This document shows, one piece after another, positions 1,633 through 22,580 of a DNA stretch of 41,752 nt. Source of the DNA: Clostridia bacterium (GTDB lineage Bacteria; Bacillota; Peptococcia; DRI-13; SM3-B62); the NCBI GenBank assembly GCA_018433675.1, contig JAHDQS010000030.1, forward strand, positions 1 through 41,752, written 5' to 3'. Under the pieces are notes generated by a model. The model was given only the letters and a program-made list of their open reading frames with translations. It was not told the DNA's origin and searched no databases. The position numbers and the translations under genes are program-made. Positions within the stretch are counted from its first letter, which is position 1. Every line of letters starts with the position of its first letter.

Positions 1633-2862
1633 TTAACACAAAGAAAAATAGTAGATTTTAAGTGTTTCCCCAGGGACGTGGCAAGAAAAAGCGTAATTGT
1701 CAGAGGATTTGAGAACATCACCAATATACTTAAACTCAAAGGTCTTATTTGGTATAGAAGAATAAATCCCATGTAAATACTCAAAGCTGTGTGTTTGAGA
1801 AGAACATTCAGGATACTTTTTTTGAATTAACCTTTTAGACCGTGCATGTTGCGTATAAGCCATAAAAGCGCCCAAAATGTAAAAATCAGGAGTGTAATAT
1901 TTTTGTGTATCCCGCAAAAATGTGTTTTCGTGGTACAGCATATGCTCATTCTCTCCAAAGAAACTAATCAAAAGATCAACACAATGGTGCTTTATTGGGT
2001 AGCTGGTGGATGCATCTGCAATAAACAGTATATTTAACTCTAAGCCAAGCAACTCGATAAGTTCTTTATACATAAAGAGCGTTTCAGGGAATTTATCAAT
2101 AAATATATAGAGGCAATCGGTTTTTAATTCCTTCAAATGATTATATAAGTAAAAACAGCCATTAATATTAGCCTCTAAGGCCACTTTTGGCTGTATTGAT
2201 AAATTTCGAAGTTTATTTATTAATAGATCTGAACAGGTACGAAAATGTATACTAAATTCTTCATTTAAATTTCGATATAATTCCCTTTTAAGATCTGGTT
2301 TGTCATATTCTCCAATATAAAGGTTTTGCGTTAAAACGATACCGTTTTCTATACGCGCTTTGTAACCACAAATACAACTTAATTCTCCGGAATTAATATA
2401 TTTATAGTTCATCTTGGCCTGTTCAATATCCAGTGTAGTTCCACAATTTGGACAAGCCAAATATTGTAGAGCCATTAAAGGCACACCTAATTTATTTCTT
2501 TTTCCCTGATTTATATCGGTTAGCTTATTGATTTCCTCACTGATAATTTGATGAGATTTCTGTTTAGACTTTATTTCGAGTGTTAATTGACTTTGTTTTT
2601 TTTGTAAAAGATAAATATACTCATTTATTATTTCTGGCTCAACCCAGTTCGAGAAAAATCTGAGTGAAAAAACATGTTGAATTTCTTTAAGGCTAAAACC
2701 CATGGTTTTTAGTTTTTTGATGATTTCTAAATCATCTATATCGCGTTGCGTAAAATCTAACAAACTACCCTGTAATTTGGGTAGTAGAAGTCCTATTTTT
2801 ATATAGTAGCGTATGGTATCTTTAGGTACACCGCTTAAAGCAGATAACTTGCCTATTTTCAT
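1633..2862 (-). CDS. MerR-type regulator fused to zinc-ribbon and methyltransferase-like domain
   Basis: The start is the ATG at 2862, preceded by GGAAAGGGTG. The first 75 residues are a MerR winged helix (MKIGKLSALSGVPKDTIRYY, then GFSLKEIQHVFSLR), followed by a coiled coil (about 85-130). At about 135-180 lies a CxxC...CxC zinc-ribbon pattern (CPNCGTTL...LSCICGYKARIENGIVL), like the Trm112/RlmA-type fingers in front of some methyltransferases. The remaining 220 residues have the layout of a Rossmann methyltransferase, but the SAM-binding glycine motif is degenerate (VALEANINGCFYLYNHL). The gene diverges from the C26/TRAP operon and likely controls it. The ligand may be sensed by the degenerate domain; this is inference. 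It ends against the IS66 relic, so slight truncation is possible. Confidence 0.7.
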   Translation of the reverse strand: MKIGKLSALSGVPKDTIRYYIKIGLLLPKLQGSLLDFTQRDIDDLEIIKKLKTMGFSLKEIQHVFSLRFFSNWVEPEIINEYIYLLQKKQSQLTLEIKSKQKSHQIISEEINKLTDINQGKRNKLGVPLMALQYLACPNCGTTLDIEQAKMNYKYINSGELSCICGYKARIENGIVLTQNLYIGEYDKPDLKRELYRNLNEEFSIHFRTCSDLLINKLRNLSIQPKVALEANINGCFYLYNHLKELKTDCLYIFIDKFPETLFMYKELIELLGLELNILFIADASTSYPIKHHCVDLLISFFGENEHMLYHENTFLRDTQKYYTPDFYILGAFMAYTQHARSKRLIQKKYPECSSQTHSFEYLHGIYSSIPNKTFEFKYIGDVLKSSDNYAFSCHVPGETLKIYYFSLC

Positions 2863-2946
2863 CAGTACCACACCCTTTCCTGAGTTTTTTTTATCATAAA
2901 TAGTACTATTCGTCAACAACTACAATAAACCAATTTATAAAATCCA

Positions 2947-2960
2947 TGGAGTACACTCCA
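2947..2960. promoter_or_regulatory. Palindrome TGGAGT-AC-ACTCCA, candidate MerR-type operator
   Basis: Perfect 6-bp arms with a 2-base centre, in the intergenic region between the MerR-like gene and the peptidase C26 gene. MerR proteins bind such dyads. A half-site CTCCAC recurs at 3057-3062. Which promoter it controls is not clear. On the minus strand it lies just upstream of a TATAAA-like element (about 2935-2940). Confidence 0.4.
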
Positions 2961-3147
2961 CGTTCTTGATATTTTATTTATGATAATACTTCGAATGTGA
3001 CTAATTTCATGAAAAGAGCAATAAAAATAAAAAATAGTATATTGACATTGATAAATCTCCACAAACTAAAATAAATAATAAGAAGAGTGTGTGGTCGTGT
3101 TGTAATTAATTCGAAATATTTTATCTTAAGAAAGGTGGGATGTAATA

Positions 3148-3177
3148 TTGACTGGAGAAGTTTTTACCCGGTATATT
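3148..3177 (+). promoter_or_regulatory. Candidate promoter of the C26/TRAP operon
   Basis: TTGACT (3148-3153), an 18-base spacer, then TATATT (3172-3177), ending 46 bases before the C26 start codon. An alternative lies upstream: TTGACA (3042-3047) and TAAAAT (3067-3072) with the 19-base spacer typical of MerR-activated promoters. The sequence alone does not decide between them. Confidence 0.4.
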
Positions 3178-3223
3178 CGTACTTAAGCATCTATTAGTTA
3201 ACTTATAATAAAGGATTGATCTG

Positions 3224-3973
3224 ATGAAACCCTTGATTGGAATTACCTGCAATTACACCCCAGAGAGCACTGTCGGCATAATAACCGGATTTGGACTTTC
3301 CGGGCAGCATTGGCATATGCTATCAAACGAATACATACTTGCCATAGAAAAGGCCGGCGGCATTCCAGTAATTGTGCCTATGTGTGACGATATTCAAACG
3401 GGAATGGATTTGGTTGCTCGTCTGGACGGTATATTGATCTCTGGCGGTAATGATGTTGACCCCTGTCTTTACGGTGAGTTAATTACCAAAGAAACAGGCA
3501 ATCTCTCCCCTCGGCGGGACCAGATAGAAATGAATGTAGTTCAGTATGTAATAAAAAAGCTAAATATCCCAATATTAGGGATTTGTCGGGGAATCCAGTT
3601 AATTAATGTCGCTTTCGGCGGTACAATATACCAAGATTTAGAGAAGAGCGGCTACAGAGAGCATTTTTTGGCAAGAGTACCTATGAACCACTATGTTCAT
3701 ACTGTCAATCTTGTAGAAAATTCCCTGATTCAGCGGATTATTGGAAGTACAAATTTAAAGGTCAATTCCTATCACCATCAAGCAGTTAAAAAAGTAGCTG
3801 ACGGTTTTGTTGCTACAGCGTTTTCAGAGGAGGGCGTAATTGAAGTTATTGAAATGCCCGGCGACCGATATGTATTGGGTATCCAGTGGCATCCCGAGAT
3901 GCTTTTTGACTGTGGAATTAACCAGCAAATATTCAGGTCATTTGTTTCTTCTTGTGCATTAAATTTAAAATAG
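3224..3973 (+). CDS. Peptidase C26 / gamma-glutamyl-GABA hydrolase-like class I amidotransferase
   Basis: This 249-residue protein has the full class I glutamine-amidotransferase fold of the C26 family (PuuD-like): MKPLIGITCNY at the N-terminus, the oxyanion strand ISGGNDVDP, the nucleophile elbow GICRGIQLINVAFGG with Cys121, and the His223/Glu225 pair in QWHPEM. Such enzymes split gamma-glutamyl amide bonds in the cytoplasm, for example gamma-glutamyl-GABA in putrescine breakdown. Length is normal. AAAGG precedes the ATG. It is the first gene of an operon with a TRAP transporter (DctQ starts 13 bases after the stop), which suggests that the imported compound or a derivative carries a gamma-glutamyl or similar amide. 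The actual substrate is unknown. Confidence 0.85.
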   Translation: MKPLIGITCNYTPESTVGIITGFGLSGQHWHMLSNEYILAIEKAGGIPVIVPMCDDIQTGMDLVARLDGILISGGNDVDPCLYGELITKETGNLSPRRDQIEMNVVQYVIKKLNIPILGICRGIQLINVAFGGTIYQDLEKSGYREHFLARVPMNHYVHTVNLVENSLIQRIIGSTNLKVNSYHHQAVKKVADGFVATAFSEEGVIEVIEMPGDRYVLGIQWHPEMLFDCGINQQIFRSFVSSCALNLK

Positions 3974-3986
3974 GCAGGTGATAAAC

Positions 3987-4544
3987 ATGGGTGCTTTGAA
4001 GTGGATTAATAATCTTATATCTAAAATTGAGGTATTTATTCTAAGCTGGAGTATTATTTTCATTTCAATAATTCTAATCAGCAATTCACTTGGAAGGGTC
4101 GTATTTAGCCGTACCTTATCGTTTGCAGAAGAGATGGGCCAGTTATTAATACTTATTTTAACTTTTTGGGGAGCAAGTAATGGTGCAAGGTTAGGACGTC
4201 ACATATCTATGACGGCTGTTTTCGATGCAGTGCCCTTTAAATTGAAAAAGATATTTTTATATGTATTATTAACCGGTACATCGGCGTGTCTGTTTTATCT
4301 TACCTATTTAAGTATAGGATATGTTTTTAAGGTATATACGCTAGGAAGAGTTACGCCAGCATTATTTATTCCATCATGGATCATTTATTCTGTTATGCCG
4401 CTGGGTTTTTTCCTAACGGCGATACAGTATTTGTTAACTTTTTGCCTGAATATAAAACACAAGGATACTTTGTACATTGGATCTGAAGAAAAAATAGACA
4501 ACACGAATAAAAATGAAAGTATATCCTCAACCTCGTTATTATAA
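3987..4544 (+). CDS. dctQ: TRAP transporter small permease subunit (DctQ family)
   Basis: About 185 residues with four hydrophobic helices. The DctQ family pattern SFAEEMGQLLILILTFWG and GRHISM is visible at about residues 45-80. DctQ joins the large subunit DctM in the membrane and helps the binding protein dock. The start is set at the ATG at 3987 because AGGTG lies six bases upstream; a GTG nine bases earlier is possible. The last 25 residues form a polar, Asn/Ser-rich tail. The dctM gene follows after 26 bases, with its own GGAGG. Confidence 0.88.
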   Translation: MGALKWINNLISKIEVFILSWSIIFISIILISNSLGRVVFSRTLSFAEEMGQLLILILTFWGASNGARLGRHISMTAVFDAVPFKLKKIFLYVLLTGTSACLFYLTYLSIGYVFKVYTLGRVTPALFIPSWIIYSVMPLGFFLTAIQYLLTFCLNIKHKDTLYIGSEEKIDNTNKNESISSTSLL

Positions 4545-4570
4545 AAGGTTGAAATAATGGAGGCATAAAA

Positions 4571-5854
4571 ATGGTAACAGTGTTATTGGTGCTGATGTTC
4601 GCATGCCTTATACTAGGATTCCCTATGTTTTTATGTATGATTGTCCCATCATTAGTAGTTCTGTTATATTATTTTCCCTCATTAGACATATCACTTCTTA
4701 TGCAACAAGTAATTTCTGGAATTTCATCATATGTACTTTTGGCGATACCTATGTATATTTTCACAGCTGATATCATGTGTGCAGGTGAGACAACAAAAAG
4801 ACTACTTGATTGGATTGAAAGTATAATTGGGCATGTTCATGGGGGTTTAGCAATTACTGGCGAAGCCACATGTACTCTTTTTGGCGCAATATCAGGTTCT
4901 ACTATGGCCACCCTGGTTACAGTTGGTAAACCAATGCGTCCGTCATTGCTAAAAGGAGGATACAATGATTCCCATACAACGGCCATGTTGATGAGTTCCG
5001 CTAATATTGCCCTCCTTATTCCTCCAAGTATAATGATGATTTTATATTGTGTAGTTACCGGTACTTCTGTAGCCGAATTGTTTTTGGCCGGGATTGGGCC
5101 AGGAATATTCATTTTTATTTGTTTTGCTGTATATGATTATTTTTACGCAAAACGCCGGAATCTGCCGACAAGACCAAAAGCTACTTGGAAAGAACGTTTT
5201 CAAACCTTTAAAAAAGCATTCCTTACACTTGGTTTGCCGCTCATCATTCTGGGAGGCATATATTCCGGTATGACAAGCCCTACTGAAGCGGCGGCAATAG
5301 CAGTTTTATATGCTTTGATTCTCGAAGTATTAGTTTATAAATCAATTACCTGGAAAGACATTCCCAAGATATCCTATTCAACAGGTTTAGTAACCGGTAT
5401 TGTTTTTATAATTGCCGCTACAGGTCAGGCATTTTCCTGGGCTATTACCTTTGCCAATATACCGAATATAATTACTGAAACATTACTTGGACCAGATCCT
5501 TCAGCCTTAGTAGTTATGTTTGTATGCAGCCTGATCTTTCTTGTTGCTTGTATGTTTGTAGATTCCATACCGGTAGTCCTTATTGTGGTCCCGATAATCT
5601 TCCCTGTAGCGGTGAAAGCAGGTGTTAATCCCATACAACTAGGTATTATTGTTACGCTTCAATCTGCTATTGGGGCTATTACACCTCCATTTGGATGCAA
5701 TATCTTTACAGCTTGTGCCATATGGAATCTAAAATTCCAAACTGTAATCAAAGGATTGGCACCATATATATTAATTTTTGTTGTTGTTGCCCTATTAATG
5801 ATTTTAGTACCAGAGCTTTCCTTGTGGTATAAGTTTTTTAATCTTGGCTTCTGA
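4571..5854 (+). CDS. dctM: TRAP transporter large permease subunit (DctM family)
   Basis: 427 residues and about 12 membrane helices, normal for DctM. Family motifs are visible: LFGAISGSTMATLVTVG near residue 98, PPSIMMILYCVVTGTSVAELF near 155, TSPTEAAAIAVLYAL near 235, and the C-terminal TLQSAIGAITPPFGCNIF. DctM is the sodium-coupled channel that moves the substrate from the binding protein into the cell. GGAGG lies eight bases before the ATG. It forms an operon with dctQ upstream and the binding-protein gene 134 bases downstream. DctM sequence alone does not reveal the substrate. Confidence 0.93.
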   Translation: MVTVLLVLMFACLILGFPMFLCMIVPSLVVLLYYFPSLDISLLMQQVISGISSYVLLAIPMYIFTADIMCAGETTKRLLDWIESIIGHVHGGLAITGEATCTLFGAISGSTMATLVTVGKPMRPSLLKGGYNDSHTTAMLMSSANIALLIPPSIMMILYCVVTGTSVAELFLAGIGPGIFIFICFAVYDYFYAKRRNLPTRPKATWKERFQTFKKAFLTLGLPLIILGGIYSGMTSPTEAAAIAVLYALILEVLVYKSITWKDIPKISYSTGLVTGIVFIIAATGQAFSWAITFANIPNIITETLLGPDPSALVVMFVCSLIFLVACMFVDSIPVVLIVVPIIFPVAVKAGVNPIQLGIIVTLQSAIGAITPPFGCNIFTACAIWNLKFQTVIKGLAPYILIFVVVALLMILVPELSLWYKFFNLGF

Positions 5855-5988
5855 AAATAAACTTGGCTATTGAGCCGTGAAAATTAGGTTTAAGGAGGGA
5901 TGCTGAGGAAGTTTATACTTGGGAATATTTTTGGCTACACCATAGTATTTTCCGGAAAAAGATCTAATCAAAGAAAGGGTGAGGAAAA

Positions 5989-7059
5989 ATGGTTAAAAAA
6001 TTTAGTATTTTGATGTTATCGATTCTAATTCTATTTTCTTCTTTGATTTTGGGTTGTTCTTCAAAGCCGAATGCTACCGAGAACAATACCGGAGGTAATA
6101 CTCAGGTTCAAACATATGAATGGAAATTTGCTCTGGAAGAAGTGTCTGGCGGTCTGCAAGATATTTATGCTAAAAAGTTCAAAGAACTCATAGAAAAGAA
6201 TTCAAATGGTAGAGTTAAAGTAAACATTTACTATCTTGGCCAATTAGGCGATGGTGCAAATCAATTTGAGCTTGTTCAAAATGGGGCGATACAGCTTAGT
6301 TTTATGTCTACTGGGGCTACCGGTACATTAGTCCCGGAAGCGAACTTTTTTTCGATGCATTTCTTATTCCCGAGCGATATAGCTAAAGCCCAAGAATTAA
6401 TGTATAACAGCAAAGCAATAAACGAGACACTAAAATCAGCTTATCTAGCTAAAAATTTCAACATACTGGATTGGATACAAGAAGGATATTGTCAGTTTAC
6501 AGGTAATAAATTGGTAAAAACGCCTTCAGATTTTAAAGGTTTCAAAATGAGAATTATGGTGTCGCCCTTAATTGCTGCACAGTTCCAGGCATATGGTGCT
6601 GATACAATCAATATGCCATTTGCGGAAGTCTACAGTGGGTTACAGTTAGGGATGGCTGATGGGCAAACCAACCCCATAAGTCTTATTGAAGAAATGAAGT
6701 TTTATGAAGTACAAAAATACCTGATGATGATTAATTCAGAATTAGGGGTAATAGCCCTTGGCAGTAATGCCCAATGGTGGGACGAGTTGCCTGACGATTT
6801 GAAGAAAGTAGTTAAAGACTCAATTTTGGAATTGAGACCATATTACCTCGAACAAGTAATAAAGGTGGAGAATGAACGGCTTGAAAAAATGAAGGAAACA
6901 AAAATGGAAATTGTCGAGTATACCAATGAAGAAAGGGATGCATTTAGAAAAGCAGCCAGAACTGACGCAGTGTTAAATAAGTATATTGAGATAGCTGGAC
7001 CAAATGGAAAAACATTGATGGACCAATTTTTCCAAGAATCAGAGTCATACTTTAAATAA
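5989..7059 (+). CDS. dctP: TRAP transporter substrate-binding lipoprotein (DctP family)
   Basis: 356 residues. The N-terminus is a lipoprotein signal (Lys-rich start, hydrophobic core, lipobox LILGC with Cys23), so the mature protein is tethered outside the membrane. It has the DctP features AKKFKELIEKNSNGRVKVNI, the conserved arginine in GFKMRIM (which binds the substrate carboxylate in characterised members) and DGQTNPISLI. The substrate is therefore probably an organic or amino acid with a carboxylate; its identity is not visible. GGTGAGG precedes the ATG. The gene ends at a long stem-loop (7067-7115). The high abundance usually needed for a binding protein may come from that element or from its own promoter in the 134-base gap. 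Confidence 0.92.
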   Translation: MVKKFSILMLSILILFSSLILGCSSKPNATENNTGGNTQVQTYEWKFALEEVSGGLQDIYAKKFKELIEKNSNGRVKVNIYYLGQLGDGANQFELVQNGAIQLSFMSTGATGTLVPEANFFSMHFLFPSDIAKAQELMYNSKAINETLKSAYLAKNFNILDWIQEGYCQFTGNKLVKTPSDFKGFKMRIMVSPLIAAQFQAYGADTINMPFAEVYSGLQLGMADGQTNPISLIEEMKFYEVQKYLMMINSELGVIALGSNAQWWDELPDDLKKVVKDSILELRPYYLEQVIKVENERLEKMKETKMEIVEYTNEERDAFRKAARTDAVLNKYIEIAGPNGKTLMDQFFQESESYFK

Positions 7060-7066
7060 TAAAAAG

Positions 7067-7115
7067 TTGGACTTAAGGCTTACTTAACGAATCATTCAGT
7101 AAGCCCTAAGTCCAA
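7067..7115 (+). terminator. Long stem-loop after dctP, without T-tract
   Basis: Arms 7067-7084 and 7098-7115 pair over 18 positions with one mismatch, with a 13-base loop. No run of T follows (TCAACAACTAAAA), so it is either a weak terminator or an mRNA-stabilising 3' structure that still allows read-through to the next gene at 7210. Confidence 0.6.
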
Positions 7116-7209
7116 TCAACAACTAAAAAAAGTATTGCTAATTCCTTAGATTTCGGTATTTATAATTCCGCTGATGAATTATTTCAAAAGATTTGAAGGA
7201 GGAAATACA

Positions 7210-8259
7210 ATGGATATAAGTGTAGAACAAGTAAGCTTTTTAATGCCAAGAATACTTCGCATCTGTGGCAGGTTGCATATGGTTGGGGCTAGTACTCTTG
7301 TTAATAATTTCGGGCCGGATGGTGAATTAATGGTAAGGCAATGGTTAAGGCGGTTCGGTTTTTGGCGGGGAAAAGAGATGCGTAAAGGCCATATGTCACT
7401 CGGGCTTCCTATAAATGTCGAAACACTAATGAAGAACTGGGATAGTGCTGCTTCATTTCATTTAGAAGAGAAATGGAAAACAGAGGCTTACTTCTCTCCT
7501 TATAATGTAAAAACGCCCAGCAAAAGAGATGAAGGCGGATGTCCTATGTCAGACCCCTGGATTGAAAATGACTTTTGGCAATGGGGACATGTCCTATGTG
7601 ATGAGTTGCATATCCAAATCGCCAGGGGATATCATCCTGATGCTGTAGTCGTTATTCCTGTTTGTATAATGAAAAGGGAAGATAGGTGTGAATTCAACTG
7701 GGTTATGCCCCCTGATGCGAGAAAGCCGGAACCAATTGATCCGTATCCGGGACAGGATGTCTTAAATGACTGGAAAATTAATAACGAAAAGGATAAAGCG
7801 GTTAAATGCCTCAGACGTTCGATGCGCGTTGCTGCAGCCCGAAGCTATTTTCTATGGGAGGTCCTTTCAGAGTATCGTCCTATGGAAGCTGTAACAGTAT
7901 TTAATAGAATTATGAAGGAGTGGGCAGCTAGTCGGGCAACTGCTCTAAAGAAAGAGATAGAAAGCAACGGATGGGGAACGGATGCAAACAGTCTGCTGTC
8001 ATACTATGACTATCCTTACGAGATTGTTTGGGGAATAAATAAGGAAGTTAAACCTAATGGAATCGAAATAGAGGTTTCATACTGTCCTTTTGCCGAGACA
8101 TGGGGTTGGCTTGGAGGCTTGAACAGCATGCAACCCTACTGTGAAAACTGTTATTCGGTAATGTCTTCAAATGGCAATCCCAAGCTTACTGCAAATGTTT
8201 TAAAGTGTAAGACTAGAGGGGATAAGAACTGTCTAATTCATATTAAAAAAGCCGATTGA
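7210..8259 (+). CDS. L-2-amino-thiazoline-4-carboxylate hydrolase-family protein
   Basis: The start is the ATG at 7210, because GAAGGAGG lies just upstream; the frame is open for 12 codons before it. The 349-residue soluble protein has the Cys-rich C-terminal pattern of the ATC hydrolase family: YCPFAETW, then YCENCYSVM, a NP dipeptide and GDKNCLIHI. The N-terminal half (LMVRQWLRRFGFWRGKEMRKGH) resembles the helical part of the same family, so it may be a duplicated or extended form. In the known family, ATC hydrolase opens the thiazoline ring to N-carbamoyl-L-cysteine, and the family has many members of unknown role. Its place after the TRAP genes suggests it acts on the imported compound. 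The family call is from memory of the motif pattern. Confidence 0.6.
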   Translation: MDISVEQVSFLMPRILRICGRLHMVGASTLVNNFGPDGELMVRQWLRRFGFWRGKEMRKGHMSLGLPINVETLMKNWDSAASFHLEEKWKTEAYFSPYNVKTPSKRDEGGCPMSDPWIENDFWQWGHVLCDELHIQIARGYHPDAVVVIPVCIMKREDRCEFNWVMPPDARKPEPIDPYPGQDVLNDWKINNEKDKAVKCLRRSMRVAAARSYFLWEVLSEYRPMEAVTVFNRIMKEWAASRATALKKEIESNGWGTDANSLLSYYDYPYEIVWGINKEVKPNGIEIEVSYCPFAETWGWLGGLNSMQPYCENCYSVMSSNGNPKLTANVLKCKTRGDKNCLIHIKKAD

Positions 8260-8370
8260 TTTTATTTAGAAGTCCACAAATAATTAAAAGCAGCTCTTTT
8301 TCAATTGCAGGGGTAATCCAAGATGAGGAGTAAACAGACACTATTATGATTGCATTTTAAAAATGATTAT

Positions 8371-8404
8371 GCTACTTTCTGCTTGCAGATAAGTAGCCTT
8401 CTTT
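8371..8404 (+). terminator. Probable rho-independent terminator
   Basis: GCTACTTTCTGC (8371-8382) pairs with GCAGATAAGTAGC (8385-8397) with one bulged base, followed by CTTCTTT. It separates the ATC-hydrolase-like gene from the decarboxylase gene, which therefore probably has its own promoter or depends on read-through. Positions 8260-8370 hold no gene. Confidence 0.6.
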
Positions 8405-8455
8405 ATATACTAACTTGTAGCCTTTGTTATTTTTTGAAGGGAGTGAAATCTAAAT

Positions 8456-9874
8456 ATGAAAAGTAAAAACAAATGTGCAAGTGATATTCTTAGAAAAGAA
8501 GCTCTGGACTTTGACCTTTTGGAACGGGCAAAAAACCATACCTTTGATTATATGAAAAACATTCTTTGTCAACCGGTATTTCCAAATAATATGTCTTTGG
8601 AGGCTTTAAACGTTTTTAGGGAGCCTCTTCAGGAAGAGCATGGCGATCCTTATGAAATTATTGACTTATTGCATAAAAACGGTTCACCGGCTACAGTTGC
8701 ACAAACAGGTGGCAGATATTTCGGATTTGTAAACGGAGGCATTACTCCTGTTGCTCTGGCAGCAAAGTGGTTGTCAGATGCTTGGGATCAAAACACCGCC
8801 TTGTATGTTATGTCTCCTATATCATCTACCCTGGAAGAGATATGCGAGAAATGGCTTATAAATCTGTTTAATCTTCCTGATGATTCAGCAGCCGGGTTTG
8901 TTGGAGGTAGTTCCGCAGCAACACTTTGTGGATTGACTGCCGGAAGAAATACTTTATTAAATAACCTCGGTTATGATGTAAGTACAAAAGGACTTTATGG
9001 GGCACCTGAAATCCGTGTTATATTGGGAGAAGGAGCCCATTCCACAGTATACAAGGTGCTTTCGATCCTTGGGCTAGGGAGTGAACGTTTGATAAAAATT
9101 CCCACTGATGAGCAAGGGCGAATAATAACAGACTATGTCCCGGAACTAGATAATCATACATTGTTGATACTACAGGCAGGCAACGTAAATTCAGGTGCCT
9201 TTGATGATTTTGAAACGTTGTGCCCCAGGGCGAGGAATGCGGGCGCATGGGTTCATATCGACGGGGCTTTTGGTTTATGGGCAGCGGCTTCTGAAGAATT
9301 AAATCATCTTACAAAAGGCGTCGAACTAGCTGATTCATGGTCAGTTGATGCCCACAAGACCTTGAATGCGCCCTATGACAATGGAATTATTATGTGCCGA
9401 AACCGTTATGCATTAATAAACGCTCTTCATATGACAGGTTCTTATATCATTTATAGTAATCAACGGGATGGAATGCTTTATACACCGGACATGTCACGCA
9501 GAGCGAGAATCGTTGAACTCTGGGCAACCTTAAAGTCGCTTGGTAAAAGAGGTATTTCGGAACTTGTTCATGATTTGCATAACAAAGCAGTATATTTTGC
9601 CAACAAATTGAAGCAGAATGGTTTTGAAATAAAAAATGATGTTTGCTTTAATCAAGTTCTAGTCTTTTTTTCAAGTTCTCACAAAACCGAACTTATTTTA
9701 AAAAAAATTCAGGATTCCGAAGAGTGCTGGTGCGGTGGAGCTAAGTGGCAAAATCAATCAGTCCTTCGGATAAGCGTTTGTTCATACCGTACAACCTACG
9801 AAGATATTGACCGTTCTGTTCAAACTTTTATTAGGGCAAAAGAAGAAGTATTAAAAGAACTCCTACTTTGCTAA
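8456..9874 (+). CDS. Pyridoxal-phosphate-dependent group II decarboxylase
   Basis: 472 residues, normal for the glutamate/tyrosine/aromatic-amino-acid decarboxylase family (aspartate aminotransferase fold I). The cofactor loop is GGSSAATLCGLTAGRN, the PLP-stacking region is ILGEGAHSTVYK, the PLP-binding Asp lies in VHIDGAFG, and the Schiff-base lysine is K301 in SVDAHKTLN. The usual sequence is DPHK; here an alanine replaces the proline. GAAGGGAG precedes the ATG. These cytoplasmic enzymes remove the alpha-carboxylate of an L-amino acid (or in some branches act as lyases), so it may work on the product of the upstream hydrolases. Substrate specificity cannot be read from the sequence. It converges with the tetR relic 26 bases downstream. 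Confidence 0.85.
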   Translation: MKSKNKCASDILRKEALDFDLLERAKNHTFDYMKNILCQPVFPNNMSLEALNVFREPLQEEHGDPYEIIDLLHKNGSPATVAQTGGRYFGFVNGGITPVALAAKWLSDAWDQNTALYVMSPISSTLEEICEKWLINLFNLPDDSAAGFVGGSSAATLCGLTAGRNTLLNNLGYDVSTKGLYGAPEIRVILGEGAHSTVYKVLSILGLGSERLIKIPTDEQGRIITDYVPELDNHTLLILQAGNVNSGAFDDFETLCPRARNAGAWVHIDGAFGLWAAASEELNHLTKGVELADSWSVDAHKTLNAPYDNGIIMCRNRYALINALHMTGSYIIYSNQRDGMLYTPDMSRRARIVELWATLKSLGKRGISELVHDLHNKAVYFANKLKQNGFEIKNDVCFNQVLVFFSSSHKTELILKKIQDSEECWCGGAKWQNQSVLRISVCSYRTTYEDIDRSVQTFIRAKEEVLKELLLC

Positions 9875-9900: not shown

Positions 9901-10462
9901 TCATAGACACACCCTCCTATCAACCAGTTTGCTAAACACCCGGTTCATAATCCGTGCCATCTTTTCAGGAGACTCCCTGTCCTCTTGGTTAATCCACCGC
10001 TTGAGCATACTGTAGCCACCGTATACAATGAAATCGTAAATATAGTCTGCTTCCGGCTGAACGTTGACATCTGGAATGACTTTCTTCAATTGCTCATGGA
10101 TTGTCGGCAGGTATAACAATTTTTGGGGAAACTCCGAATCAACATTGGAATTGATCAGCATTCGGATTAAGTCTATATTCTTGCCGATAAAATTCAAAAT
10201 ATTAATCAGATTTGTGTGGTCGGAATCTGGTCTCTGATCCGATGGTACAGAATCGCTGCAGGGCAAATTGTTTTCAATCCGCATCAGCACCTCGTCTTCT
10301 ATCTCTTTTAACAGATCGAACTGTGATCCGTAATACTTGTAAAAGGTTGAGCGGTTAATGCCTGCCTTCAAACAGAGATCCCTAATAGAAATACTGTAGA
10401 TACTTTCTGTCTTTAATATTTCGATCAGGCTTTCCCTTAATAGGTGCTTTGTTAGCCGGACA
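9901..10462 (-). pseudogene. TetR/AcrR-family regulator lacking its start
   Basis: The frame contains the TetR helix-turn-helix (RVRLTKHLLRESLIEILK, SISIRDLCLKAGINRSTFYK) and a ligand domain to about 185 residues. No start codon exists upstream of the DNA-binding region: a TAA stop lies in frame at about 10463, where the sequence becomes plus-strand RND-pump sequence. A start at the TTG at 10371 would remove half the DNA-binding domain. The native N-terminus was thus lost in a rearrangement whose junction lies near 10425-10460. Proteins of this kind usually repress an adjacent RND efflux operon, pieces of which lie just next door. Confidence 0.7.
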
Positions 10463-10885
10463 CGTTTTTAGCCTAATCGGATCAATTGTTATGATGCAGA
10501 TTTTGGGGATTTCAATCAACTTGATTTCCATGTTGGGCTTTCTAACCTTAGTGGGGACCGTTGTAAACAATGGCATCTTGTTTATCGACACGACAAATCA
10601 GCTGAAACAGAAAATGCCGGTGAAAGATGCTTTGATTGAAAGCGGTGTTATCCGGTTGAGGCCAATCCTGATGACGACACTTACCACAGTCATTGCAATG
10701 ATTCCCGTGTCCTTGGCAAAGGGAGGAAATACCGGTATGATGAGCGGCTTGGCCATTGTCATCATAGGTGGTCTTATCGCATCAACACTTTTGATTCTTC
10801 TGTTTCTTCCTAATTTTTACCTCCTTATTGCCGGTAAGAAGGCAGCAACCCTGGGCTTAAAAGCCGCTGAGAAGGAACAACTGAA
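10425..10885 (+). pseudogene. RND efflux pump, C-terminal fragment
   Basis: About 150 codons match the last membrane half of an AcrB-type pump: FPLIGALLAG, ISINLISMLGFLTLVGTVVN, NGILFIDTTNQL, RLRPILMTTLTTVIAMIPVS and a final helix ending in LPNFYLLIAGKK. The usual protein has over 1000 residues, so most of the gene is gone. There is no ribosome site. At about 10885 the sequence switches, in another frame, to a membrane-fusion protein. The frame then runs into a stop at 10931. Confidence 0.8.
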
Positions 10886-11239
10886 ATCGGTATTATTATT
10901 GTTGATAATTCTACCAACCTGTTCAAAGTAAAAGCTATGCTGGCCGACGCAGCAGATCTTCCCGACGGCACGACTGTGGAATTAACTACGGTAACCCATG
11001 TAGCGGATAACTCAGTTTTGATTCCCTATGATGCGCTATACTTTGAAGGTGGCAATGCCTATGTCTATGTGTCACAAGATGGAAAAGCCGTGAAAAAGTT
11101 GGTAACTGTCTACCTATACAGCACAGATATGGCTGCGCTTTCGGCCGGTCTTTTTGCAGGACAAGAAATTATCACCACTTGGGCTCCCACCTTAAAAGAC
11201 GGCACGCTAATCAAAACTTCAACGGAAAAAGAACAGTAA
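10886..11239 (+). pseudogene. RND membrane-fusion protein (AcrA/HlyD-like), C-terminal fragment
   Basis: The frame opens with IGIIIVDNSTNLFKVKAML and continues through VLIPYDALYFEGGNAYVYVS and GLFAGQEIITTW, the C-terminal barrel of an RND adaptor. The N-terminal lipoyl and hairpin parts are absent. In intact operons the adaptor gene precedes the pump gene; here it follows, which shows deletion or recombination between two copies. No ribosome site precedes the ATG at 10937. Confidence 0.75.
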
Positions 11240-17840: not shown

Positions 17841-20800
17841 TTATTGTTCTCCAAGTTGGATAAATGTCCCGTCATAATCAACAAATAGTATGGGGCGGGT
17901 GATTCCGGCTACTATCTTCCAGTATGTGCCGTCAGTATCATCATCATAATCAAACTCCCAGTATAATAGAGGAGCTGTCCCGGTGCTCGTCATGTCTGCG
18001 ATATCATACCCATCAAGATTCCAGTGCTCAGTACTTGATATGGCACTGCCGTTAACCGTCATATTCTGATTGGCGTAGTTGCGATCCAGTTGCGAACCGC
18101 CTTCACTAACTCCTGATGTACTGCTGCCCAGTATTCTGTGAACGTTTGTAGTTCCTGCGACAGAAGGATTAAATGCCAGTTGATCAATTATCCTACAATT
18201 ATCGCCGGCAACTTGACTATATACTCCTACTATACCGCCGACGCTGTCGACACCTGAGACACTACCGGTTGCATAAGATTTGTACACCAGAACATCCCAC
18301 TCGATGCTTCCGGCTAAGCCTCCGACATTATTATTGCCAGTTACATCACCCGTTGCATAGGCATTTTTTATTGCCGCATTACCAGTCTGATCGTAGCCAT
18401 CAAAACCTTGATAAACATCTCCAACCAACCCGCCGACGTTATTATAACCAGAGACATTTCCTGCGGCATAAGATGCATGTATCTGAGCTCCGTCATAAAT
18501 ACCGCCGGCCAAACCACCGACATGATTGGCACTTGTTCCGGTACCTGTCACTCCTACTGTTGAATAGGAATATTTGATAGTTGGGTCTACACTGCTTCCA
18601 CTGAACCAGCCCACTAAGCCGCCAAGATACATACCATCACCGACTACGCTTCCCGTTGAATAACAGAAGGAGATGTAGGTATCCAATACATCTGCTACCA
18701 GTGCGGCTACTTCTCCGCTACCGGTGACATTTACATCTAGCAAGCCCAAATCTGAGATCACCGCACCACTTGTCGCGCCAAAGAGCGCTTGATAATCTTC
18801 TGTTGGCCGGTTAATAAACAGATTACTGATGGTTTTGCCATTGCCGTCAAAGCTGCCGGAAAATTGGGTTGTATCACAATCTGTTATGGGAAGCCAGCCG
18901 ACACCTGTTGTAAACTGGGTCTTAATACTTTCTGAACTGTTTCCGTCACCGTTCCAATCTGTTCCCGTGGCCGCAGGATCAGTATAGCTGCTATCCGCAC
19001 TAAAATCTAAATTGTTCATGAGAATATAGTAGTCGTCAAGTTCCCAGGCCTGACCGGAGGCAGCATGGGTTTGGCCAATGCTGGCTAAATCCTCAATTTT
19101 GGATATCTTCCAGGGGTCTGCTTCAATACCGGAACCATAGGCAGATCCCAGCACCGTAATACTTAACTGACCTTTGACTATTGTTTTACCGGTGGAATCA
19201 TCTATTACCCGATAGCTTATGATTGTATCCCCTGGTGCTACTGCTGTGATTACACCTGTACCGGTATTAACTGTTGCTTTAGAAGTATCACTTGACTGCC
19301 ATTGAATTGTTTGGCCGCTGGCTGCCGGAGTAAATCCTGTTGGTGTTACATCCCCTGCACCAAGTTGTACCGTTCCTATCTCAAAGGTATCAACTGTTGC
19401 CGCTTCGTGTACTGTAATCAGTTGTTGGCCTTTGGCGACCACTCTACCGGTACTGTCTTCAAGCACTTGATAACTGATTGTGGTATCTCCTGGTGCTACT
19501 GCTGTGATTACACCTGTACCGGTATTAACTGTTGCTTTAGAAGTATCACTTGACTGCCATTGAATTGTTTGGCCGCCAGCTGCTGAAGTAAATTCTGTTG
19601 GTGCTACATCATCTTCGTCCACTTGTACTACCCCTATGGATGGATGGTCGATAGTTGCGAGGGCGAAGACCTGAATTTCAACTTTATTGGTAACCTCTCC
19701 AACAATGTAGCGGATTACCGTCGTACCCGGTGCTTGTGCAGTTACAACTCTTGAGCTTGAATCGATTGTGGCAGCTGTTTCATTGCTGGATGTCCAGCTG
19801 AGTGTACCCGCTTCGGTAGTTGAAGCCGTTCTAGTTAAAACTTCCCCTATTTGCAACACATTAGCAGGTGTATCTAAACCTGTTATTTCTGCACCCAGTT
19901 CGAGGGTAGTAACCTCTATGAACCCACTGGGTTCTGAGGCGGGTTGACCACCTGCTGCCTTGAATCTTGCTGCAAACCTATGCTGCGTTCCGGGGTCTAA
20001 ACCTTCAATTACATTGGTAAGGCTATCCCCCCACCAAAATTCCGGCCATACTCCCGTAACATCATTATAGATACTCATTGCATATTCAAGATCTGCAAGA
20101 TTTTCCTCAGCCGAGCAGGCTAATACGACCGTGTCTTCGGTTCTGCTTGCTAAGGTTGGTGTTGAAGGTGTTGCCGGGGCTGCTGCTGCCGTTACAGTCA
20201 GATTGTTCGTTGCAGCAGTTTTACCGGTTGCATCATGGGTTATCGTTACCGGGTTTCCATTGTGGCTTGCTGCCGTCAGTGTTGAGCCGTTGGCCGGATT
20301 AGCTGTGTAGCCCACCGCTGTACCGTCTGTGAATGTTGCGGTTGCTGTCGAACCGTCATTGTTGGTTTCGGTTATTACCATTCCATCCAACGCTAAGGTG
20401 TCATCTGTCGTTTCCGTATAGCTCATCTTTGTTGGTTGTGTCGTTACGGCGATACTGTCCACAGCCAAGGCTCCGGTTTCCGCAAAAGTCACGGTAAAGC
20501 TTACAGTGTTACCTACGCCTGTGCCTGTAGTCGTGGTAGTACCTACAGAGTCCGCACTTGCCACCGTCGGAGTGAAGGCTGCTGACTGGAACTCTTTGGC
20601 GTTCTTCGAGGTTAATTCCAATGTTGCTGTATAGACGGTTGCTGCCTTGAATTTGCTGCCGGCTGTTAGGTCTTCGTTCCAGGTTACATTTGTTACGATA
20701 AAGTCAGCGTTGCTTGTTGCTGCTTCTACTGCGGCTGTATCCTGGGGAGTTTCTCCTAAGACCGGAGCTGTAATCACAACTGCTGCGGCTGTGATGTCCA

Positions 20801-22580
20801 CCGGATCTGCTGCCGCTATTCCTATACTCACAGCATTTCCCGCAATTTCGCTGGTAAGGGCCGTTGCATTTGGCTGGATACTTAAAGTTCCGGGTGCCGC
20901 GGTGCCGGTGAAATCAAAGGTAGCACTTGTAGCTGTTCCCGGCGCATCATGCAGTGAAATATTGTCAACAGTCAGGCCTGTAGTGCCTGTGTCTATTGTC
21001 CAATTGGCTTCAGTTGTGGCCCCTGCGGCATATGTATCCCCTGTTAAGCCGATAACCGTGTTTGGATTTGATGCGCCATCATCGATTGGTGTTGCTGTTG
21101 TGGCTGCCTTGACGGTTACTGCGGCTGTTGCGGTTTTTGTTGCGTCTGCAGCCGAAGTCGCAGTTATATTTGCTGTTCCTGCCGCCACCGGTGTTACTAC
21201 ACCGCTTGCTACCGTTGCCACGTTTGCAGCACTTGATGACCATGTAACATTGATATTTGTCGCATTGGCCGGGCTGACACTTGCCGTGATTGTTCCCGTC
21301 GCCCCGCCTGCTGTCAAACTCAAGGTTGTTGGGGTAACACTTACGGAGGTTACAGCAACAACAGTAGGTTCATCACTGCTGTCATCACTACTTCCACCGC
21401 CGCCTCCGACATAACTGGTGTCATTCGATGAGGGGGGAGTAGTGGCAGGCTCATTTGCGGGAGGTTCCACCCCCGGGGCGGTATTAACATTCGGTTGGGT
21501 TGTGGTTGAAATAACGACATCATCTGCGTTAACATTTGCTGTTGTTACTTCACCGTCACCTTTGACGGTTGCTGCCTTATTCAGGGTAACAGTAGTTACT
21601 TTTGTTCCTTCGGCAACGGTAACGGTTGCCGTGTTGTTGACAACAATATTTTCAATCGTAGTCTGTCCCTGGGTAGATACCACCGCATCCGCTGCGGTTA
21701 CTTCAACATTAGAAAAGGTACCTTCTAAGATGACCTCTTCTCCTGCCTGCCCGGTGGCTACAACCACATTCACCCCTTGAGCGTTGGTGGTTACAACCCT
21801 GGTTCCACCGTCGGGGGTGCTTTCAATAACAAGATTACCCCGGAAAGAGCCTCCGTTGATATGGATGCTGTTCTTACCGCCGCCTCTGACAAAAGTGTCC
21901 CCCAGAACACTAATATTCTCCAGGAAAACGTCCCCGTCTCCGACGGACTCTGCTATAATCAGGTTGCCTTTGATTACTTTGTTCTGTAATCTTACATCAG
22001 CTGCCGCCACCGTAACATTGCCTGCTATGGTTTCAGATCCCTGGGTTGGACCATAAATCCCTTCTTCATCATAGGTTTCCGAGTAACCGTAGAAATCTAC
22101 GCTTCTGGTTGAGTCATTCCACTCATAACCTACACTCAATGCTTTGGCTAAGAAGGAAATAGGCAGCATGGTGCGTCCACCGCCACCGCCGATATCTTTG
22201 ATTTCAGCGGCGGTATCCATCATCAAGATTTTACCGTTGACATTCAGTTGTTTACTTCCGATTTTGATAATGATAAGGTCATCATCCCTGCTGATTCTCA
22301 CTGTTTGCTCCTCCGGAAGCCAGACAGCACTGTCTGTACCTAGTGCAGGCGCGACAAATGCTACCGGTACTAACGTTCTGTCGTCTTTTATGTATGGTGC
22401 CACATCCGTAGTCACATTTTGGGTACCCTTTTGATAGTCCTGCTGACCGATTGTAAAAGTGACGATCTGCTCAGATCCTTTCGCCTGCTCGGTTGCAAGC
22501 GTATTAAATGACAACATTGAAAGGATCATGACGGACAACATTACAAATGTCAGTCTTTTGTTTCTTTTCAAACTTCCCAT
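17841..22580 (-). CDS. Large secreted mosaic surface protein (CuAO-N1, Ig-like, FN3-like, GLUG)
   Basis: 1579 residues; AGGTGGAG precedes the ATG. Domains in order: signal peptide (1-30, ending near LATEQA); a copper-amine-oxidase N1-type domain (about 35-160; IKDDRTLVPVAFVAPALG, RTMLPISFLAKALSVGYEW); a regular valine-rich beta-solenoid-like stretch (170-370); a Gly/Ser/Asp linker (386-402); a BIG2 Ig-like domain (405-490; SVSVTPTTLSLTAGG); Ala/Thr-rich domains (495-795); an FN3-like domain (797-887); three BIG2 domains (890-1145); and a GLUG region (1150-1579; repeats like NNVGGLAG). No LPXTG motif or SLH domain is seen, so the mode of anchoring is unknown. The likely role is adhesion or envelope binding. 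It diverges from a LytS/LytTR pair that may control it. Confidence 0.85.
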   Translation of the reverse strand: MGSLKRNKRLTFVMLSVMILSMLSFNTLATEQAKGSEQIVTFTIGQQDYQKGTQNVTTDVAPYIKDDRTLVPVAFVAPALGTDSAVWLPEEQTVRISRDDDLIIIKIGSKQLNVNGKILMMDTAAEIKDIGGGGGRTMLPISFLAKALSVGYEWNDSTRSVDFYGYSETYDEEGIYGPTQGSETIAGNVTVAAADVRLQNKVIKGNLIIAESVGDGDVFLENISVLGDTFVRGGGKNSIHINGGSFRGNLVIESTPDGGTRVVTTNAQGVNVVVATGQAGEEVILEGTFSNVEVTAADAVVSTQGQTTIENIVVNNTATVTVAEGTKVTTVTLNKAATVKGDGEVTTANVNADDVVISTTTQPNVNTAPGVEPPANEPATTPPSSNDTSYVGGGGGSSDDSSDEPTVVAVTSVSVTPTTLSLTAGGATGTITASVSPANATNINVTWSSSAANVATVASGVVTPVAAGTANITATSAADATKTATAAVTVKAATTATPIDDGASNPNTVIGLTGDTYAAGATTEANWTIDTGTTGLTVDNISLHDAPGTATSATFDFTGTAAPGTLSIQPNATALTSEIAGNAVSIGIAAADPVDITAAAVVITAPVLGETPQDTAAVEAATSNADFIVTNVTWNEDLTAGSKFKAATVYTATLELTSKNAKEFQSAAFTPTVASADSVGTTTTTGTGVGNTVSFTVTFAETGALAVDSIAVTTQPTKMSYTETTDDTLALDGMVITETNNDGSTATATFTDGTAVGYTANPANGSTLTAASHNGNPVTITHDATGKTAATNNLTVTAAAAPATPSTPTLASRTEDTVVLACSAEENLADLEYAMSIYNDVTGVWPEFWWGDSLTNVIEGLDPGTQHRFAARFKAAGGQPASEPSGFIEVTTLELGAEITGLDTPANVLQIGEVLTRTASTTEAGTLSWTSSNETAATIDSSSRVVTAQAPGTTVIRYIVGEVTNKVEIQVFALATIDHPSIGVVQVDEDDVAPTEFTSAAGGQTIQWQSSDTSKATVNTGTGVITAVAPGDTTISYQVLEDSTGRVVAKGQQLITVHEAATVDTFEIGTVQLGAGDVTPTGFTPAASGQTIQWQSSDTSKATVNTGTGVITAVAPGDTIISYRVIDDSTGKTIVKGQLSITVLGSAYGSGIEADPWKISKIEDLASIGQTHAASGQAWELDDYYILMNNLDFSADSSYTDPAATGTDWNGDGNSSESIKTQFTTGVGWLPITDCDTTQFSGSFDGNGKTISNLFINRPTEDYQALFGATSGAVISDLGLLDVNVTGSGEVAALVADVLDTYISFCYSTGSVVGDGMYLGGLVGWFSGSSVDPTIKYSYSTVGVTGTGTSANHVGGLAGGIYDGAQIHASYAAGNVSGYNNVGGLVGDVYQGFDGYDQTGNAAIKNAYATGDVTGNNNVGGLAGSIEWDVLVYKSYATGSVSGVDSVGGIVGVYSQVAGDNCRIIDQLAFNPSVAGTTNVHRILGSSTSGVSEGGSQLDRNYANQNMTVNGSAISSTEHWNLDGYDIADMTSTGTAPLLYWEFDYDDDTDGTYWKIVAGITRPILFVDYDGTFIQLGEQ
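19231..19317. repeat. 87-bp exact direct repeat, copy 1 (within surface-protein gene)
   Basis: The same 87 bases recur at 19489-19575, 258 bases away. They encode the QTIQWQSSDTSKATVNTGTG portion of two adjacent BIG2 domains. Full identity at the DNA level points to recent duplication or gene conversion between domains. Confidence 0.85.
19489..19575. repeat. 87-bp exact direct repeat, copy 2
   Basis: Second copy of the repeat at 19231-19317. The flanking parts of the two domains are clearly diverged, so only this core is homogenised. Confidence 0.85.

Follow-up and report, generated by a model that had tools for sequence, protein, structure and literature searches.

The window, a stretch of 41,752 nucleotides, is contig 18 of a 3.0-Mb Clostridia bacterium genome in 58 contigs. 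We describe a run of six plus-strand genes at 3224–9874 and the regulator that diverges from them. An earlier note on this DNA had listed the six as a C26 hydrolase, DctQ, DctM, DctP, an ATC-hydrolase-like protein and a PLP decarboxylase. An ORF check finds all six open reading frames in place, and a Pfam search of the window confirms the family of each, a family being called where the score exceeds the Pfam curated cut-off.

The run begins with a Peptidase_C26 family hydrolase (3224–3973; 214.5 bits), in which alignment with PuuD and Lin1909 identifies the catalytic residues C121, H223 and E225. The dctQ gene for the TRAP small membrane subunit (3978–4544, with a start that may instead be at 3987; Pfam DctQ 73.1 bits) follows after 4–13 bp. 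Next on the plus strand come dctM, for the large membrane subunit (4571–5854; Pfam DctM 376.9 bits, with TIGR00786 also over its cut-off), and dctP, for a solute-binding, lipoprotein-like subunit (5989–7059; Pfam DctP 240.7 bits, TIGR00787 over its cut-off). A tandem PF14196 (ATC_hydrolase-like) protein is encoded at 7210–8259 (54.1 bits against a cut-off of 28.1); its longest reading frame opens at 7174, and the start at 7210 is more likely because a putative ribosome-binding site, AAGGAGG, lies at 7196–7202. The last gene (8456–9874) encodes a group II PLP decarboxylase (Pyridoxal_deC 127.7 bits) with K301 in a DAHKTLN motif, a lysine that is invariant in four aligned relatives.

The divergent regulator (1633–2919, minus strand) proves to be a MerR-family protein (Pfam MerR_1 56.6 bits) with a long C-terminal extension: its DNA-binding domain is followed by a Cys4 zinc-ribbon-like segment and a methyltransferase-like C-terminal domain. 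Judged by the ribosome-binding site, its more likely start is at 2862 (MKIGKLS...). A palindrome scan of the MerR/C26 intergenic region gives a perfect palindrome, TGGAGTACACTCCA (2947–2960, no strand), as a candidate operator. An IS66 transposase fragment (695–1135) and a C-terminal AcrB fragment from a broken RND gene (10449–10931) bracket the region, and a short membrane-fusion-protein-like fragment lies at 10937–11239. These flanking fragments suggest past rearrangement, and the region between the IS66 fragment and the broken RND gene is consistent with gene traffic.

Transcription units

The short C26-dctQ spacing, with dctM and dctP on the same strand, makes C26-dctQ-dctM-dctP (3224–7059) look like one operon. 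Directly 3' of dctP is a very stable plus-strand hairpin (7066–7116; RNAfold −24.2 kcal/mol, z −8.0), and none of 200 shuffles is equally stable. Because a T-tract is missing on the plus strand, it may act as an attenuator or stabilise the 3' end instead of being a classical terminator; for the same reason, transcription of the operon may yet include the PF14196 gene. A gap of 196 bp separates that gene from the decarboxylase, and a weaker hairpin (z −2) lies upstream of the latter. We infer a division into separate transcription units. Consecutive genes on one strand are not in themselves evidence of a single transcription unit or of a single pathway. The promoter scan is uninformative, with 28 sites observed and 31 expected.

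MerR regulator and C26 hydrolase

Of all linkages at the locus, that of the divergent MerR/C26 pair is the most clearly conserved; the pair recurs in one other genus. There, at locus L128 of genome G329, a full-length MerR homologue (40% identity end to end) diverges from a C26 gene whose product is 45% identical to that of the window and is its nearest relative in the C26 tree (support 84/91). The palindrome at 2947–2960 has no counterpart at L128, and a shared MerR operator was rejected on that ground.

For the part after the MerR DNA-binding domain, the closest match to the predicted fold is RlmA(I) (Foldseek E 1.4e-8), which combines a zinc ribbon with a class I methyltransferase fold; the C-terminal part of the regulator resembles both. 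At the position of the glycine-rich SAM loop, the window protein reads EANINGCF and the L128 homologue ESNVNGVF. This degenerate sequence makes it likely that the methyltransferase-like domain is a non-catalytic sensor. Under the terms tried, no paper on MerR-methyltransferase fusions was found. More distant MerR homologues in several genomes lie near amidohydrolase and permease genes, as read by eye.

Most genomes of the phylum, 344 of 398, encode C26 proteins. The window enzyme shares its family and its Cys-His-Glu residues with PuuD and other Peptidase_C26 hydrolases of gamma-glutamyl amides. Unlike PuuD, it has no adjacent polyamine (Puu) genes and appears to be operonic with a TRAP importer. 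It scores 105 bits against the cut-off of 266 for the PuuD gamma-glutamyl-GABA hydrolase equivalog; a gamma-glutamyl substrate is therefore conjectural, being based on family membership.

In the tree, the window C26 and its best relatives form a six-member group (support 92/92, with moderate support on the root side). A transporter gene adjoins all six, a linkage noticed after the fact, and five transporter families are represented: TRAP in the window, a Na/Ala symporter, the DcuC family twice, a Liv-type ABC system (read by eye) and the Na/H antiporter family. Few transporter-like neighbours are seen at the other C26 loci viewed, which were read by eye once the pattern had been noticed. No second genome was found with C26 directly beside dctQMP, so the C26-TRAP partnership itself is drawn from the spacing in one genome; a literature search under the terms tried gave no paper joining C26 and TRAP. 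A tentative extension, which we think less likely than not, is that the transporter-linked C26 group makes up a modular uptake and amide-cleaving system, so far undescribed, with interchangeable importers. In two genera it would carry the MerR-methyltransferase-like regulator, and here it would use an ectoine-type TRAP importer, C26 taking the place of the EutD and M20 hydrolases that accompany the relatives of that importer.

TRAP transporter

The dctQ, dctM and dctP genes are contiguous and their products all exceed the Pfam cut-offs, which identifies a TRAP (DctPQM) system. DctP falls in a clade of 17 with TeaA, UehA and 4pfi (support 100/100), apart from other DctPs; the tree supports membership of the clade, not the placement of DctP relative to TeaA and UehA inside it. 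DctP groups with Bacillota DctPs from other genomes of the phylum (97/96), and TeaA and UehA form a long branch of their own. No DctP orthologue was found in the other genome of the genus, where the best match has 29% identity. No paper naming structure 4PFI was found in the literature.

The DctP clade and the three-subunit make-up are common to the window system and to UehABC/UehPQM and TeaABC (PMC5924519, PMC13188858). The accompanying genes differ: where close relatives of the transporter have EutD-like, M20 and sometimes EutA-like genes, the window has C26 and MerR. Fourteen related TRAP loci were read at length; an EutD-like M24 hydrolase is present in 12, an M20 amidohydrolase in 13 (one of them weak) and an EutA-like protein in 6. 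In Bacillota, clusters composed in this way and including UehPQM have been described as putatively catabolising ectoine (PMC13188858). The window contains no EutD, M20 or EutA gene, and the genome encodes no EutD-like protein near the cut-off (best 82.8 bits, cut-off 613). Ectoine catabolism was rejected as the pathway of the locus because EutD is missing, and ectoine is kept as a rival for the transporter ligand. The EutD-like relatives in genomes G016 and G011 score 452–480 bits, also below the curated cut-off. Since the EutD-like proteins adjacent to the closest related transporters miss this cut-off, ectoine is not certain even for those transporters.

It is reasonable to suppose that the imported compound contains an amide or a cyclic C-N bond, because the C26-TRAP spacing is operon-like, a regulator diverges from the pair and TRAP systems of this clade usually lie beside amide- or ring-opening hydrolases. 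If this holds, the TRAP clade, commonly taken to be specific for ectoine, would transport amino-acid derivatives with amides or rings more broadly, and the hydrolase encoded next to a given transporter would indicate the derivative that it carries.

PF14196 protein and PLP decarboxylase

The PF14196 protein shares its family and conserved cysteines with AtcB, the ATC hydrolase of Pseudomonas. It differs in having two PF14196 units in tandem, with three cysteines kept in each half, and no characterised close relative; it may be an enzyme or a ligand-binding protein. Matches among 398 genomes of the phylum occur in only nine others, all weak. A scan of a collection of genome contigs with exact peptide patterns, which reaches close relatives only, gives no match, and neither do plasmids. 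The AlphaFold model has a mean pLDDT of 66 and is good only for about residues 20–180, so that fold matches concern the first domain. For this domain, structure comparison gives matches of moderate score (Foldseek best E 0.009; VIA Z up to 8.0) to TRAPP Bet3, to H-NOX and to the phenol sensors PoxR, MopR and DmpR; its predicted fold thus resembles the V4R/Bet3/phenol-sensor type. PF14196 had already been linked with the V4R and HNOB sensor domains in a study on signalling proteins of archaea, which also noted a shared Cys cluster (PMC5847659). The fold match is in line with that study, although similarity of fold does not establish function. The thiazoline ring opening that the earlier note attached to this gene had been transferred from one characterised enzyme, and the predicted fold is akin to V4R-type domains that bind ligands. 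Caution is in order: PF14196 should not be read as a hydrolase from its name.

Three further PF14196 genes, each with a single domain, are found on contig 34 of the same genome at about 148–173 kb (loci L092 and L093). Their neighbours are an M20 hydrolase, SDH_alpha-type (cysteine desulfidase-like) genes, two RidA genes, an aldehyde dehydrogenase and an Amidohydro_3 protein, a setting more likely than the window to fit ATC-type chemistry.

The decarboxylase shares the Pyridoxal_deC family and the PLP-lysine motif with the aspartate, diaminobutyrate and tyrosine group II decarboxylases. Unlike these, it belongs to a separate, widespread subfamily often found beside a MocR-type regulator, and it misses all NCBIfam equivalog cut-offs (best 99.6 against 606 bits). 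Within the phylum, three genomes carry close relatives (74, 69 and 61% identity), each among unrelated genes. A scan of 84,980 species, with one genome per species, gives 80 best loci from many phyla (53–76% identity; 1.28 Mb in total, some with short flanks), and none of the 80 has a C26, DctP, DctQ or ATC-like match nearby; the only other matches around them are one DctM at 28% and one partial MerR. The commonest neighbour is a divergent MocR-type regulator, directly upstream at 16 of 78 loci (L162, L163, L164, L167, L168 and L171 are among the MocR-neighboured loci). One such adjacent regulator was tested; its best score is with the model for EhuR-type MocR, the ectoine regulator, below the cut-off.

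The decarboxylase is thus probably not part of the C26-TRAP unit. The earlier note had counted it as a member and proposed a gene-neighbourhood search for conserved co-occurrence; for this gene there is no co-conservation, the outcome that the note itself had named as speaking against its reading.

Functional model and alternatives

The reading that we prefer, while giving it only about an even chance, confines the functional unit to 1633–7059: MerR divergent from C26-dctQ-dctM-dctP, serving import and amide hydrolysis, with PF14196 and the decarboxylase as apparently unrelated neighbours. Outside the cell, the TRAP system of the TeaA/UehA clade would pick up a small carboxylated nitrogen compound, which it would bring in by ion symport, a direction and energetics that we infer from the TRAP family. 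The C26 Cys-His-Glu triad would then hydrolyse a gamma-glutamyl-type or similar amide bond of the imported compound; the products would be one amino acid plus either an amine or another amino acid. Control of the operon would lie with the divergent MerR protein, whose methyltransferase-like domain is the probable sensor. The core operon consists of known modules in an unusual combination.

Three other explanations were weighed. The first is the model of the earlier note: all six genes would form a single island for the uptake and breakdown of one compound, built on an amino-acid core and containing an amide or cyclic C-N/C-S bond, with decarboxylation as the last step. The genes are adjacent, on one strand and within 6.7 kb, all of the families are compatible with nitrogen-compound catabolism, and a species-specific assembly would be compatible with the comparative data. 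Against this, the hairpin and the gaps interrupt the run, the predicted fold of PF14196 is sensor-like, and at none of the 80 best loci do the decarboxylase relatives lie near C26, DctP, DctQ or ATC-like genes. The other genome of the genus, which has no recognisable synteny with the window in an empty-site comparison, lacks the ATC-like gene and the decarboxylase as well as a DctP orthologue, and in no genome examined are the C26-TRAP operon, the PF14196 gene and the decarboxylase all present together. We therefore regard the single island as quite improbable. What survives of it is the import of an amide or cyclic C-N compound, in keeping with the C26-TRAP spacing and the hydrolases of the related clusters (12 and 13 of 14), while the membership of the decarboxylase finds no support; the case warns against building pathways from same-strand proximity alone.

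Alternatively, the transporter might bring in ectoine or hydroxyectoine, as UehPQM and TeaABC do, for osmoprotection or nutrition, with C26 as an incidental operon partner. The DctP clade and the putative ectoine clusters around its Bacillota relatives (PMC13188858) would fit, but TeaA and UehA sit on their own long branch, the best EutD-like score in this genome (83 bits) is far from both the cut-off and the G016 and G011 relatives, and the EutD-like proteins beside the closest transporters fall short as well. We consider this rather unlikely. Much the same holds for the proposal that gene traffic has joined C26, dctQMP, PF14196 and the decarboxylase with no shared function, even between C26 and TRAP. 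The bracketing IS66 and AcrB fragments, the occurrence of the C26-dctQMP pair in no other genome seen and the different usual context of each part speak for it, but the C26-dctQ gap of 4–13 bp and the transporter beside every C26 gene of the group count against it, and we hold it to be unlikely. The C26-TRAP unit under MerR control stays our preferred reading.

Farther along the window, on the minus strand at 17841–22580, lies a gene for a repeat-containing protein of 1579 aa, of secreted or surface type.
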